A stretch of DNA of 64,000 nt from a virus, in the IMG/VR virus record IMGVR_UViG_3300028840_001395, positions 62,001 through 126,000 of that record; one strand, given 5' to 3'. Positions 23,246-60,868 of this stretch are shown one piece after another. Both the position numbers and the translations under genes were made by a program. The notes below the pieces were generated by a model. The model ran no database searches, was not told the DNA's origin, and worked only from the letters and a program-made list of their open reading frames with translations. Each line of letters opens with the position of its first letter. The first letter of the stretch is position 1.

Positions 23246-23332
23246 GCTGGGATGGCGGAATTGGTAGACGCGCCGGTTCGAGAGGCCGGTGGACTTAGTG
23301 CCGTGGGGGTTCGACTCCCCCTCCCAGCACCA
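23246..23332 (+). tRNA. tRNA-Leu (anticodon GAG, C33)
   Basis: Leu-type D arm, long variable arm, 7-bp acceptor GCTGGGA/TCCCAGC, encoded CCA. Anticodon loop TCGAGAG reads GAG but has C instead of the near-universal U at position 33, so identity is less sure than for its neighbours. Confidence 0.75.
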
Positions 23333-23334
23333 AT

Positions 23335-23427
23335 GGAGAGGCAAGCCGATGGGTGACGGCAGCCGCTTGGAAAGCGGTCGAGGTCTGTTGAAGGCCCTTG
23401 AGGGTTCGACTCCCTCTCTCTCCGCCA
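23335..23427 (+). tRNA. tRNA-Ser (GGA)
   Basis: Long variable arm, loop TTGGAAA, encoded CCA. Confidence 0.9.
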
Positions 23428-23439
23428 AAGAAACGCAGT

Positions 23440-23528
23440 GCTGGGGTGGCGGAATGGTAGACGCGCCAGGCTCAGAACCTGGTGGGACGCAAGTGCCCGT
23501 GGGAGTTCGACTCTCCCCCTCAGCACCA
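23440..23528 (+). tRNA. tRNA-Leu (CAG)
   Basis: Stem CCAGG/CCTGG with loop CTCAGAA; long variable arm; CCA encoded. Confidence 0.92.
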
Positions 23529-23530
23529 AC

Positions 23531-23620
23531 GGAAGGTCAAGCAGATTGGCGACTGCAGCGGCTTGCTAAGCCGTCGAGGTGTAAAAGCCCTTGGGGGTTC
23601 GACTCCCCCACCTTCCGCCA
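23531..23620 (+). tRNA. tRNA-Ser (GCU)
   Basis: Loop TTGCTAA, long variable arm, CCA encoded. Confidence 0.92.
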
Positions 23621-23630
23621 ACTTCGCTAC

Positions 23631-23706
23631 AGGGGGCGCTCTGGGTAAGCGGGCTGGTCTCCAAAACCGGCTGATCTGGGGAGTTCGATTCTCCCGCCCC
23701 CTGCCA
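23631..23706 (+). tRNA. tRNA-Trp (CCA)
   Basis: Stem CTGGT/ACCGG, loop CTCCAAA; acceptor AGGGGGC/GCCCCCT; CCA encoded. Confidence 0.9.
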
Positions 23707-23723
23707 GATGATGCAAAGCGCGT

Positions 23724-23809
23724 GCGGTGGTGGTGGAATGGTAGACACGCCAGCTTGAGGGGCTGGTCCTGGAAACAGGGTGGAGGTTCGACTCCTCTTC
23801 ACCGCACCA
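23724..23809 (+). tRNA. tRNA-Leu (GAG)
   Basis: Stem CCAGC/GCTGG, loop TTGAGGG with normal U33; CCA encoded. Second GAG reader in the array. Confidence 0.92.
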
Positions 23810-23817
23810 ATCTTCGT

Positions 23818-23892
23818 GCTGGGGTAGCTCATTGGTAGAGCACCTGAGTGAAGCCCAGGGTGTAGGTGGTTCGATTCCACTCCCCAGCACCA
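23818..23892 (+). tRNA. tRNA-Phe (GAA), weak anticodon stem
   Basis: Good D and T arms and CCA; loop GTGAAGC gives GAA, but the last anticodon-stem pair is A-C. Confidence 0.75.
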
Positions 23893-23903
23893 CAAACTTC
23901 GTT

Positions 23904-23980
23904 GGTTGGGTAGCTCAGCCCGGTAGAGCAGCGGACTGAAAATCCGCGTGTCGGCGGTTCAAATCCGCCCCTGACCACCA
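23904..23980 (+). tRNA. tRNA-Phe (GAA)
   Basis: Stem GCGGA/TCCGC, loop CTGAAAA, acceptor GGTTGGG/CCTGACC, CCA encoded. Confidence 0.92.
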
Positions 23981-23989
23981 AGACCCGTT

Positions 23990-24076
23990 CGGAGAGTTGA
24001 GCAGTGTGGTGAGCTTAGCGGGCTGTAACCCCGTGGCCGATTGGCTTTGGAGGTTCGATTCCTCTCTCTCCGACCA
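23990..24076 (+). tRNA. tRNA-Tyr (GUA)
   Basis: Stem GCGGG/CCCGT, loop CTGTAAC, long variable arm, CCA encoded. Confidence 0.9.
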
Positions 24077-24085
24077 AGAACGCAT

Positions 24086-24173
24086 GGCGCGGGAAGCGTG
24101 TGGCTGGGACCGCCGGTTGACTGTAAATCAACTGCCTGATGGCTGAGGGGTTCGATTCCTCACCGCGCCACCA
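24086..24173 (+). tRNA. tRNA-Tyr (GUA)
   Basis: Stem GTTGA/TCAAC, loop CTGTAAA, acceptor GGCGCGG/CCGCGCC; sequence clearly different from the preceding Tyr gene. Confidence 0.92.
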
Positions 24174-24195
24174 ACTTCGGGGGTATCATGCCCTC

Positions 24196-24666
24196 ATGAG
24201 CGTCTGGTTCCACGGAACGACCCAGGAGAACGCCGAGAAGATCCTACAAGAGGGCTTCCAGCCCGGCACCTACTTCGGTGAGCACCTGGAGGATGCTGTC
24301 CACTTCGGCGGTGGGTTCGTCTTTGAGGTGTACTTCAAGGAGGCACCCTCCAAGAACTGGCAGTGGCGCTGCTCCGAGGTCATCCCCGTGAGCGCGATCC
24401 TCAACCTCATCAGGTATCAACCCGAGGTCGTTCACTGGAGTCCAGAAGCAGCCCGCCGGATGAAGGCGGATCACTTCGAGGAGGAAGGCTACACCATCTG
24501 TGACACCTGCGATGGCAGAGGTCAGATGGAAGCCTACCCGCCCCTCACCCACTGGCGCGACCGGGAGAAATGCACCCTCTGCCCCGACTGTAGGGGGTAT
24601 GGCTCCCCAGACAAACGCGACGCCTGGGATGAAATGTCCAGGAAGATGGAAGAGGCAAAGGGTTAA
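24196..24666 (+). CDS. ADP-ribosyltransferase-like protein with DnaJ-type zinc motif
   Basis: 156 residues. The start WFHGTTQENAEKILQEGF and GTYFGEHLEDAVHFGGG follow the PARP/ART-fold pattern (H-G-T, helix, then a Y-F/G turn and second helix); a glutamate in VFEVYF or the later VVHWSPEAARR would be the candidate catalytic acid. The C-terminal third has CDTCDGRG and CTLCPDCRGYG, a DnaJ-like CxxCxGxG zinc site. It sits among tRNA genes and its stop codon abuts tRNA-Leu(UAA) with no gap. It could modify a protein, RNA or NAD-linked target; assignment is from fold pattern only. Alternative: an uncharacterised phage family. Confidence 0.5.
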   Translation: MSVWFHGTTQENAEKILQEGFQPGTYFGEHLEDAVHFGGGFVFEVYFKEAPSKNWQWRCSEVIPVSAILNLIRYQPEVVHWSPEAARRMKADHFEEEGYTICDTCDGRGQMEAYPPLTHWRDREKCTLCPDCRGYGSPDKRDAWDEMSRKMEEAKG

Positions 24667-24752
24667 GGCCCTGTGGCGGAATTGGGAGACGCGCCCGCCT
24701 TAAAACTGGGTGTCCTAGCGGCGTCCGGGTTCGAGTCCCGGCGGGGCCACCA
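24667..24752 (+). tRNA. tRNA-Leu (UAA)
   Basis: Leu D arm, loop CTTAAAA, CCA encoded. Begins the base after the stop codon of the previous gene; lower part of anticodon stem has mismatches. Confidence 0.8.
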
Positions 24753-24757
24753 CCTGC

Positions 24758-59554: not shown

Positions 59555-59560
59555 ACGGGG

Positions 59561-59589
59561 AGTGTACCAAGGGCGGCTCCTAAAAGCAA
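59561..59589 (-). promoter_or_regulatory. Possible sigma70-like promoter of HNH gene
   Basis: Minus strand TTGCTT, 17 bp, TACACT; 7 bp before ATG 59554, so any leader would be very short. Confidence 0.35.
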
Positions 59590-59606
59590 TCACCCTTTCA
59601 AATTCA

Positions 59607-59682
59607 TGGTGGGCCGAGAAGGATTTGAACCTTCAACCTTCAGGGTAAGAGCCTGCTGCACTATCCGTTGTGCTACCGACCC
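59607..59682 (-). tRNA. tRNA-Lys (CUU)
   Basis: Stem GCAGG/CCTGA, loop CTCTTAC, CCA encoded. Confidence 0.9.
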
Positions 59683-59695
59683 ATGAATGAAAATG

Positions 59696-59771
59696 TGGTA
59701 GGCCCGGAGGGAGTCGAACCCTCAACTTCCCGGTTAAGAGCCGGGTACTCTGCCAGTTGAGCTACGGACCC
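59696..59771 (-). tRNA. tRNA-Lys (CUU)
   Basis: Stem CCCGG/CCGGG, loop CTCTTAA, CCA encoded. Confidence 0.93.
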
Positions 59772-59820
59772 ACATGCTCGTGAAGGACGCCGTTTTAGAC
59801 AGGATTCGGGAGAGAGGCCC

Positions 59821-59907
59821 GGTCATCGGTGGGGGTCGAACCCACGACCTCCGGGTTGAAAAAGCCGTCAAGCCGTCCCGACGCTCTGCCGACTGAGCTA
59901 CGACTAC
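59821..59907 (-). tRNA. tRNA-like gene with 21-nt anticodon loop, no CCA
   Basis: D arm, T arm and 6 of 7 acceptor pairs are good. The anticodon stem TCGGG/CCCGG encloses 21 nt that include a tandem GACGGCTT repeat. Removing about 14 nt would restore a loop like CTTTCAA (UUC). Either a pseudogene or a tRNA with a tiny insertion; 3' end is CGGG. Confidence 0.5.
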
Positions 59908-60066
59908 GTGGACTTCATCCCGTCCCCTGAATGACTACTGACCTGAACCGTTCCAAGGTTCCCCACTGGCACCCTCGCGGGGGCGGAAAGGTAGGCTTGA
60001 CGGCCCCACCCCCAGGCACCAGGCTTCGCCAGGGTTCAGTCCAGGCGTTCATCCGGCGATAGAACT

Positions 60067-60143
60067 TGGTCGGGAAGACAGGATTTGAACCTGCGACCGC
60101 TCGGCCCCCAGCCGAGTGCTCTACCAGACTGAGCTACTTCCCG
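60067..60143 (-). tRNA. tRNA-Pro (GGG)
   Basis: Stem CTCGG/CCGAG, loop CTGGGGG, CCA encoded; second GGG gene. Confidence 0.92.
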
Positions 60144-60152
60144 AATGTCTCT

Positions 60153-60229
60153 TGGCGGGAATGACGGGAGTTGAACCCGCTTCCTCTGGCGTGACAGGCC
60201 AGCGCCTCCTCCACTTCGGCCTCATCCCC
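60153..60229 (-). tRNA. tRNA-Asp (GUC)
   Basis: Stem CTGGC/GCCAG, loop CTGTCAC, acceptor GGGGATG/CATTCCC, CCA encoded. Confidence 0.9.
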
Positions 60230-60238
60230 TTGCGTTCT

Positions 60239-60315
60239 TGGTCGGGGCGACTGGATTTGAACCAGCGACCTCTCGGATCCGAACCGAGTACTCTTCCAGA
60301 CTGAGCTACACCCCG
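60239..60315 (-). tRNA. tRNA-Pro (CGG)
   Basis: Stem CTCGG/CCGAG, loop TTCGGAT, CCA encoded; second CGG gene. Confidence 0.92.
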
Positions 60316-60325
60316 AAAATGACTG

Positions 60326-60403
60326 TGGCAGGGACGACGGGACTCGAACCCGCGACCTCCTGGGCGACAACCAGGTGTCCTAAACCAACTAGACCACGCC
60401 CCT
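60326..60403 (-). tRNA. tRNA-Asp (GUC)
   Basis: Stem CCTGG/CCAGG, loop TTGTCGC, CCA encoded. Confidence 0.9.
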
Positions 60404-60412
60404 GCGGCGTGT

Positions 60413-60487
60413 TGGCAGGAGTGACGGGAATCGAACCCGCCTCACTCGGGAGACAGCCGAGCTGCATCACCAGATGCACACACCCCT
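60413..60487 (-). tRNA. tRNA-Asp (GUC)
   Basis: Stem CTCGG/CCGAG, loop CTGTCTC, CCA encoded; third Asp gene, atypical D arm. Confidence 0.85.
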
Positions 60488-60707
60488 ATCGAATGGACGG
60501 ATGGGAAGGGTGTGACCCCTCCATCCCCGTGTCGCGTGGCTGGCCGTGTCACAGCCCTTTGGACTCGCGCCACAGGGACCCACATCTACGGGCACCCCAT
60601 CGTCGGTTACCCCGTCAGGAGTCTCACCTGCTCCTCCTCTCCCGTCCTTCCTCTGTCCGAGGCGACTTGGGTCTGGTGTGCATCTACACCACGGGGTCAT
60701 TGATCTT

Positions 60708-60781
60708 GGCTCCTCGGGAGGGAATCGAACCCCCGACACACTGGTTAACAGCCAGCCGTTCTACCGCTGAACTACCGAGGA
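60708..60781 (-). tRNA. tRNA-Asn (GUU)
   Basis: Stem GCTGG/CCAGT, loop CTGTTAA, CCA encoded. The 220 bp between this and the Asp gene hold only a GGATGG/CCATCC hairpin that I can see. Confidence 0.92.
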
Positions 60782-60793
60782 ACATTTGACTTT

Positions 60794-60868
60794 TGGCTTA
60801 CCGGACGGGACTCGAACCCGCGCGCTTTACGTTAACAACGTAGTGCTCTGCCGCTGAGCTACCGGCAA
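60794..60868 (-). tRNA. tRNA-Asn (GUU)
   Basis: Loop TTGTTAA, CCA encoded; first tRNA of the minus array. One anticodon-stem mismatch. Confidence 0.85.

Follow-up and report, generated by a model that had tools for sequence, protein, structure and literature searches.

We analyzed a 64,000-base stretch (hereafter the window; bases 62001-126000) of the 435,804-base IMG/VR virus record IMGVR_UViG_3300028840_001395, in which transfer RNA (tRNA) genes lie in two arrays, one at 23.2-27.1 kb on the + strand and the other at 46.1-60.9 kb on the - strand. As read from the sequence, these arrays appear to supply a giant tailed phage with a near-complete tRNA pool that looks mostly functional. The complement is among the fullest recorded for a phage, with 70 predicted genes, 65 of them with CCA, and every sense codon readable. 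The record (G+C content 62%) carries an identical 144-base repeat at its ends and therefore probably represents the complete genome, a circle of about 435,660 bases. It exceeds 200 kb and contains portal, RecA, and DNA polymerase genes.

tRNA gene content and codon coverage

The tRNA genes seen by eye in an original prediction were largely accepted by both scanners used: ARAGORN called 66 tRNA genes and one transfer-messenger RNA (tmRNA) gene in the window, and Rfam, at its gathering threshold, recovered 61 tRNAs and the tmRNA (168 bits). No tRNA or tmRNA was called in 20 simulated sequences with the dinucleotide make-up of the window. That prediction had counted 63 cloverleaf genes between positions 23246 and 60868; ARAGORN began its first gene and ended its last at exactly these positions, and the count was right, with 63 of the 66 genes encoding a 3' CCA and the other three being aberrant. 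Four more tRNA-like genes outside the window bring the whole-genome total to 70: an amber (CUA) tRNA, one gene whose anticodon loop has 6 nucleotides (nt), and two genes whose loop is enlarged, measuring 8 nt according to ARAGORN and 9 nt when read by hand.

Of the 70 genes, 65 have a 7-nt anticodon loop; their 46 anticodons (45 sense anticodons and CUA) serve 20 amino acids, and under ordinary bacterial wobble these can read all 61 sense codons. Coverage of every amino acid, as originally predicted, persisted when only strictly canonical window genes (Y32, U33, R37, and CCA) were retained. There were 57 of these, with 43 anticodons, and the only codons left unread were GUC/GUU for Val and GCC/GCU for Ala. 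An A32-U38 combination, as found in tRNA-Ala(GGC), is normal in bacteria. When 64 genes were drawn at random from the 45 sense anticodons, full coverage was reached in none of 20,000 draws (mean, 34 kinds), a figure that assumes a uniform model and serves as a guide only.

CCA is encoded in 65 of the 70 genes, and the five without it are all structurally aberrant (52092, 52406, and 59821 in the window; L019:3728 and L019:6876 outside it); we regard them as tRNA-like genes or genes in decay. In several genes the anticodon loop departs from the canonical form at U33 or R37. As the original prediction had noted, Ile AUA depends on odd genes: its only readers are a UAU tRNA with a long variable arm (48534) and the gene at 52406, which has an 8-nt loop and no CCA. 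The amino acid carried by the former, with its class-II body, is uncertain. The G-1:C73 pair is missing from both tRNA-His genes, one having U73 and the other A73, and the gene at 46446 has C37. Ile-AUA and His identity are doubtful.

No aminoacyl-tRNA synthetase was found among the families listed in Pfam scans of proteins of at least about 130 residues, a few long proteins lying outside these scans, and the class-II synthetase core PF00587 was absent by family search from G000 (the whole record of this phage, along which G-prefixed coordinates count). The absence of synthetases is likely rather than proven. Since none was found, charging would have to be by host enzymes. The strong independence from host tRNAs that was originally proposed is plausible but would be only partial, given the lack of a detected synthetase and the doubtful Ile-AUA and His identities; several anticodon loops are odd as well.

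Some of the odd genes merit separate description. A tRNA-Asp with U37 (60413-60485) is common to the relative G018 (L096:11591; 79% identical), so at least one odd tRNA is conserved. Two near-identical tRNA-like genes with the enlarged anticodon loop CUCUUGGGA lie at L019:6787-6950 (G000:412787-412950), downstream of a gene for a VWA-like protein; of the two, the second lacks CCA and is less well paired in its acceptor and T stems. A Y-RNA-like identity was considered for the odd elements near the VWA gene and rejected, the tRNA family being the only one that Rfam returned above threshold. Conserved frameshift suppression by tRNAs with 8- or 9-nt loops was likewise set aside: no counterpart was present in the relatives' arrays that were read, and the TATC element has no CCA. 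Stop-codon recoding by the amber tRNA was ruled out, as UAG terminates 176 of 505 called genes.

A proposed spare tRNA pool and competing explanations

We consider it fairly probable that the arrays provide a spare, host-charged tRNA pool that sustains phage translation when host tRNAs are cut or depleted. The anatomy of the genes is read from sequence, and from it we infer that the phage tRNAs would be transcribed, then trimmed and charged by host enzymes, and that their purpose would be to back up or replace the host pool during infection, when that pool may be depleted by RNA turnover or cut by tRNA-targeting defenses. RtcB, together with the KptA, RlaP, and HAD-SAK enzymes, could mend cut tRNAs, while the tmRNA would free stalled ribosomes and PTH2 would deal with drop-off peptidyl-tRNAs. 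Besides the tRNAs, the genome has matches to an RNA ligase and end-healing enzymes (RtcB, KptA, RlaP, HAD-SAK, and PNK3P). RNA repair and tRNA provision in jumbo phages have been read as defense of the translation system (PMC7824862) and phage tRNAs as nuclease evading (PMC10264068), and a further report links phage tRNAs and RNA repair to tRNA-targeting defense (PMC11555353).

Relatives were sought with the portal protein, which matched 66 IMG/VR loci, one 485-kb uncultured phage record, and the cultured phage Tunturi 5 (37% identity). A tRNA search of 20 relative records gave 70 matches in G001 (536 kb); four other records had 42, 40, 38, and 36, and the remainder 0-17. With a range from 0 to 70 tRNAs, the lineage allows the reasons why phages carry these genes to be tested comparatively, and the cultured Tunturi 5, a distant relative, offers a laboratory handle. 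RtcB and PTH2 follow tRNA number. RtcB was present in five of six tRNA-rich records (36-70 matches, this phage counted) and in none of 15 tRNA-poor records (0-17 matches; Fisher P = 0.0003), and PTH2 in four of six and none of 15, respectively (P = 0.0025); many of the records compared are fragments of differing size, and the Fisher tests ignore kinship. The distribution of both genes supports the spare-pool explanation. In the portal tree, the tRNA-rich records stand in several places rather than in one clade, and well-supported branches force at least two changes. Searches of viral contigs for close relatives, with the RNase Z-like protein or with exact odd-tRNA sequences, found none, and megablast of window positions 5069-16296 against annotated phages gave no match. 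Host assignment through portal homologs in bacterial bins was abandoned as uninformative, since only two contigs from metagenome-assembled genomes were recovered, with labels of different phyla.

Several observations weigh against a spare pool. HAD-SAK and PolyA_pol domains do not rise and fall with tRNA number, and the association of RtcB and PTH2 with it may be partly due to record size, incompleteness, and shared ancestry. In addition, tRNA gene number tracks the phage's own codon use, with a rho of 0.37 by anticodon (P = 0.012) and 0.69 by amino acid, as codon adaptation would predict. The last point favors the alternative that the tRNAs supply codons commoner in the phage than in its host, and jumbo phage XacN1 shows such a trend against its own host (PMC5852040). 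This alternative predicts a selective set; here nothing is left out, and readers are present even for codons that the phage scarcely uses (UUA, AUA, and CUA, at 0.1, 0.9, and 1.4 per thousand). Such readers are better accounted for by pool replacement than by codon compensation and suggest that completeness itself was selected. The correlation of gene number with phage codon use is only moderate. We regard codon compensation as an unlikely main explanation; codon matching is probably a secondary benefit.

The arrays are ordered by amino acid, as the original prediction stated. Adjacent genes specify the same amino acid in 22 cases, against 5.0 expected and a maximum of 15 in 20,000 shuffles, and the tendency extends to the arrays of relatives (observed/expected, 19/3.0, 13/1.9, 14/1.6, 11/1.7, 8/2.0, and 7/1.7). 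Neighboring same-amino-acid genes are about 60-80% identical, often with different anticodon loops, and therefore are not recent duplicates. Recent local tandem duplication as the source of the grouping was rejected on this ground and because another tRNA was mostly equally or more similar. Identity within adjacent pairs that share an anticodon is only 60-74%, and the partners differ in loops and in some identity elements (for example, C1-G72 versus G1-C72 in Tyr and U73 versus A73 in His); loops differ between copies for 12 of the 16 repeated anticodons.

These diverged pairs can be read in more than one way. One speculative idea, to which we give a little less credence than to codon compensation, is a hedged replacement pool, ordered by amino acid, in which most repeated anticodons would be carried by strongly diverged pairs with different loops so that no single host nuclease removes both. 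With RtcB and PTH2 this pool would form a single translation-protection module, whose parts would be gained and lost jointly in the lineage. Alternatively, the pool might serve hosts that differ in tRNA pools or identity rules, hence the divergent isoacceptors. The low identity of the same-anticodon pairs and their differing loops and identity elements, as in Tyr and His, are in keeping with such a broad host range, but the identity pair usual in bacteria is missing from both His genes, whereas C73 is present in the tRNA-His of most relatives, and we find the idea doubtful. Finally, it is very improbable that the arrays are mostly a recombination graveyard in which tRNA genes pile up and drift with little function: the five aberrant CCA-less genes, a degenerate Leu-like piece, the loops non-canonical at U33 or R37, and the strong variation in tRNA number between relatives would fit decay, but the strictly canonical genes alone cover 20 amino acids, CCA is kept in nearly all genes, and near-complete coverage and amino-acid grouping recur in relatives.

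Comparison with known phages

The original prediction had called a complete tRNA set in one phage rare. The set is complete, but its rarity was overstated, as precedents include XacN1 (56 tRNAs, 20 amino acids; PMC5852040), Tunturi 5 (43 tRNAs, 20 amino acids; PMC11924767), 1-SewaA (47 tRNAs, complete or near-complete set; PMC10747093), huge phages with up to 67 tRNAs (PMC7162821), and the 536-kb relative with 70 matches. This phage is a particularly full case of the already known giant phages with complete tRNA sets. Within the literature searched, two features seem new: RtcB and PTH2 co-vary with tRNA number inside one lineage, and the arrays are ordered by amino acid.

XacN1, a jumbo myovirus of Xanthomonas citri, resembles this phage in its tRNAs for 20 amino acids, extra translation-related genes, chaperonin, and amber-suppressor tRNAs (PMC5852040). 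Its 56 genes, however, amount to a set of about 26 canonical tRNAs that recurs in each of its two 66-kb terminal repeats, whereas the present genome has single copies of about 65 different CCA-bearing genes, plus a tmRNA; a tRNA-His guanylyltransferase was not seen in the protein scans of this phage. Its long direct terminal repeats with tRNA arrays are not matched by the 144-base end repeat and single-copy arrays found here, although assembly could collapse longer repeats. Tunturi 5, which infects Tunturiibacter, shares an RtcB-type ligase, a tRNA nucleotidyltransferase, and arrays grouped by amino acid, but it has fewer tRNAs, no tmRNA over threshold, no PTH2 match, and an Acidobacteriota host. 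G001 (IMG/VR 3300009031_000221) is nearest in the portal tree and has its 70 tRNA matches in separate arrays, with a tmRNA, two RtcB genes, PTH2, and KptA; it differs in that CCA is present in only 24 of 66 tRNAs read and that the arrays read lack Cys and some Val readers. In huge phages, tRNA number grows with genome size and some encode tRNA-ligating enzymes and tmRNA, but tRNA synthetases, as many as 15 per genome, are present in some of them as well (PMC7162821), and none was found here. Cluster C1 mycobacteriophages likewise have densely packed tRNA genes, and changes in their anticodon loops have been proposed to confer resistance to anticodon nucleases (PMC10264068). They carry about 33 tRNAs per phage and avoid Ser(NGA) tRNAs, whereas Ser(GGA), Ser(UGA), and Ser(CGA) are all encoded here.

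Array contents and neighboring genes

The first array (+ strand) opens with Leu(GAG, C33), Ser(GGA), Leu(CAG), Ser(GCU), Trp(CCA), Leu(GAG), two Phe, and two Tyr genes (23246-24173; ARAGORN and structure reading). The tRNA-Trp(CCA) was absent from the Rfam matches, but its acceptor, anticodon, and T arms are all canonical. Leu(UAA), Leu(UAG), Leu(CAA), Thr(CGU), Thr(UGU), and Thr(GGU) follow (24667-25391; ARAGORN, Rfam, and structure reading). The same three sources define a composite element at 25401-25555, which had been interpreted as a split tRNA-Ser. An odd element does exist there, but a more apt description is a degenerate Leu-like 5' piece followed by a tRNA-Ser(UGA) call (25467-25555) that carries two mismatches in its acceptor. 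Two Glu(CUC) genes come next (25559-25719; ARAGORN and Rfam), and ARAGORN placed Arg(CCG), Ser(CGA), and an intact Ser(UGA) at 26858-27124, the last of which we shifted by one base, so that it starts at 27039 and has G73 and CCA. The tmRNA gene (28688-29048, + strand; ARAGORN and Rfam RF00023) encodes the tag ANDEAVLQAA; the relatives G001 and G018 have a tmRNA too.

In the second array (- strand throughout), genes identified by ARAGORN and structure reading were Pro(UGG), Glu(UUC), Arg(ACG), Arg(GCG), and two His (46117-46598); the long-armed UAU tRNA, sole CCA-bearing reader of AUA (48534-48628); Cys, an elongator-like Met, and Gln(CUG) (49689-49921); the tRNA-like element with the 8-nt anticodon loop CUUAUCAA and no CCA (52406-52481); Ala(GGC), two CAU tRNAs with an initiator-like 1-72 mismatch, and two Ile(GAU) (52513-53025); Arg(UCU) and Val(GAC, C33) (58078-58288); and Pro(GGG), Asp, Pro(CGG), and two further Asp, the last with U37 (60067-60485). 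ARAGORN and Rfam identified Pro(CGG), Val(UAC), Val(CAC), and Pro(GGG) (46975-47880); Gln(CUG), Gln(UUG), Ala(CGC), Ala(UGC), and Gly(GCC) (50328-51306); Gly(CCC) (52298-52373); Gly(UCC) (54729-54804); two Lys(UUU) and Arg(CCU) (55264-55566); two Lys(CUU) (59607-59771); and two Asn (60707-60868). Structure reading identified a Gly(GCC) with the odd T-loop ATCATAC and A73 (51982-52057), a tRNA-like element with a Leu(GAG) anticodon, acceptor mismatches, and neither long arm nor CCA (52092-52161), and another with D and T arms, an abnormal hairpin replacing the anticodon arm, and no CCA (59821-59907).

Genes predicted to act in RNA repair or translation lie near the arrays. A HAD "Swiss Army Knife" (HAD-SAK) RNA-repair phosphatase-like protein adjoins the first array (21979-22575, - strand; Pfam PF10307, 56.7 bits, G000:84063-84449), and an RtcB-family RNA ligase lies between the two (39107-40513, + strand; Pfam PF01139, E = 8.5e-89). 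Within the second array is a beta-lactamase-fold protein related to ribonuclease Z (48619-49452, - strand; Pfam PF12706), whose NCBIfam RNase_Z score of 86.9 bits is far under the 293-bit equivalog cut-off. A PTH2-family peptidyl-tRNA hydrolase is encoded just past that array (63518-63958, - strand; Pfam PF01981, 112 bits, G000:125521-125946). Elsewhere in the genome, KptA and RlaP-like genes are adjacent as an RNA-repair pair (L003:27-2127; G000:40.0-42.1 kb), and other domains include a second HAD-SAK, cREC, macro, PARP, NAD-synthesis, and PNK3P. A 2475-residue protein (L001:9266-16693; G000:9266-16693) combines 2'-5' RNA ligase-like, PolyA_pol head (CCA-enzyme-like), topoisomerase IB, and GNAT domains.

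Other features of the genome were also recorded. A GroEL-like chaperonin gene at 17363-18973 of the window is about 36% identical to other phage GroELs. An RVAxR(W/Y/F)-type peptide motif occurs 25 times in 20 proteins, versus 2.9 in shuffled proteins, often near the protein end; it may be a processing or packaging signal. Genes with this motif include those at 11589-12566, 14147-14635, 14632-16182, 19025-21982, and 21979-22575 of the window, and others genome-wide. An ArdC-like anti-restriction protein with a metallopeptidase domain is encoded at L106:51-995 (G000:145350-146294), and a DnaB-like helicase at L112:45-2966 (G000:303844-306765) is apparently split by an intein with a LAGLIDADG-like domain.

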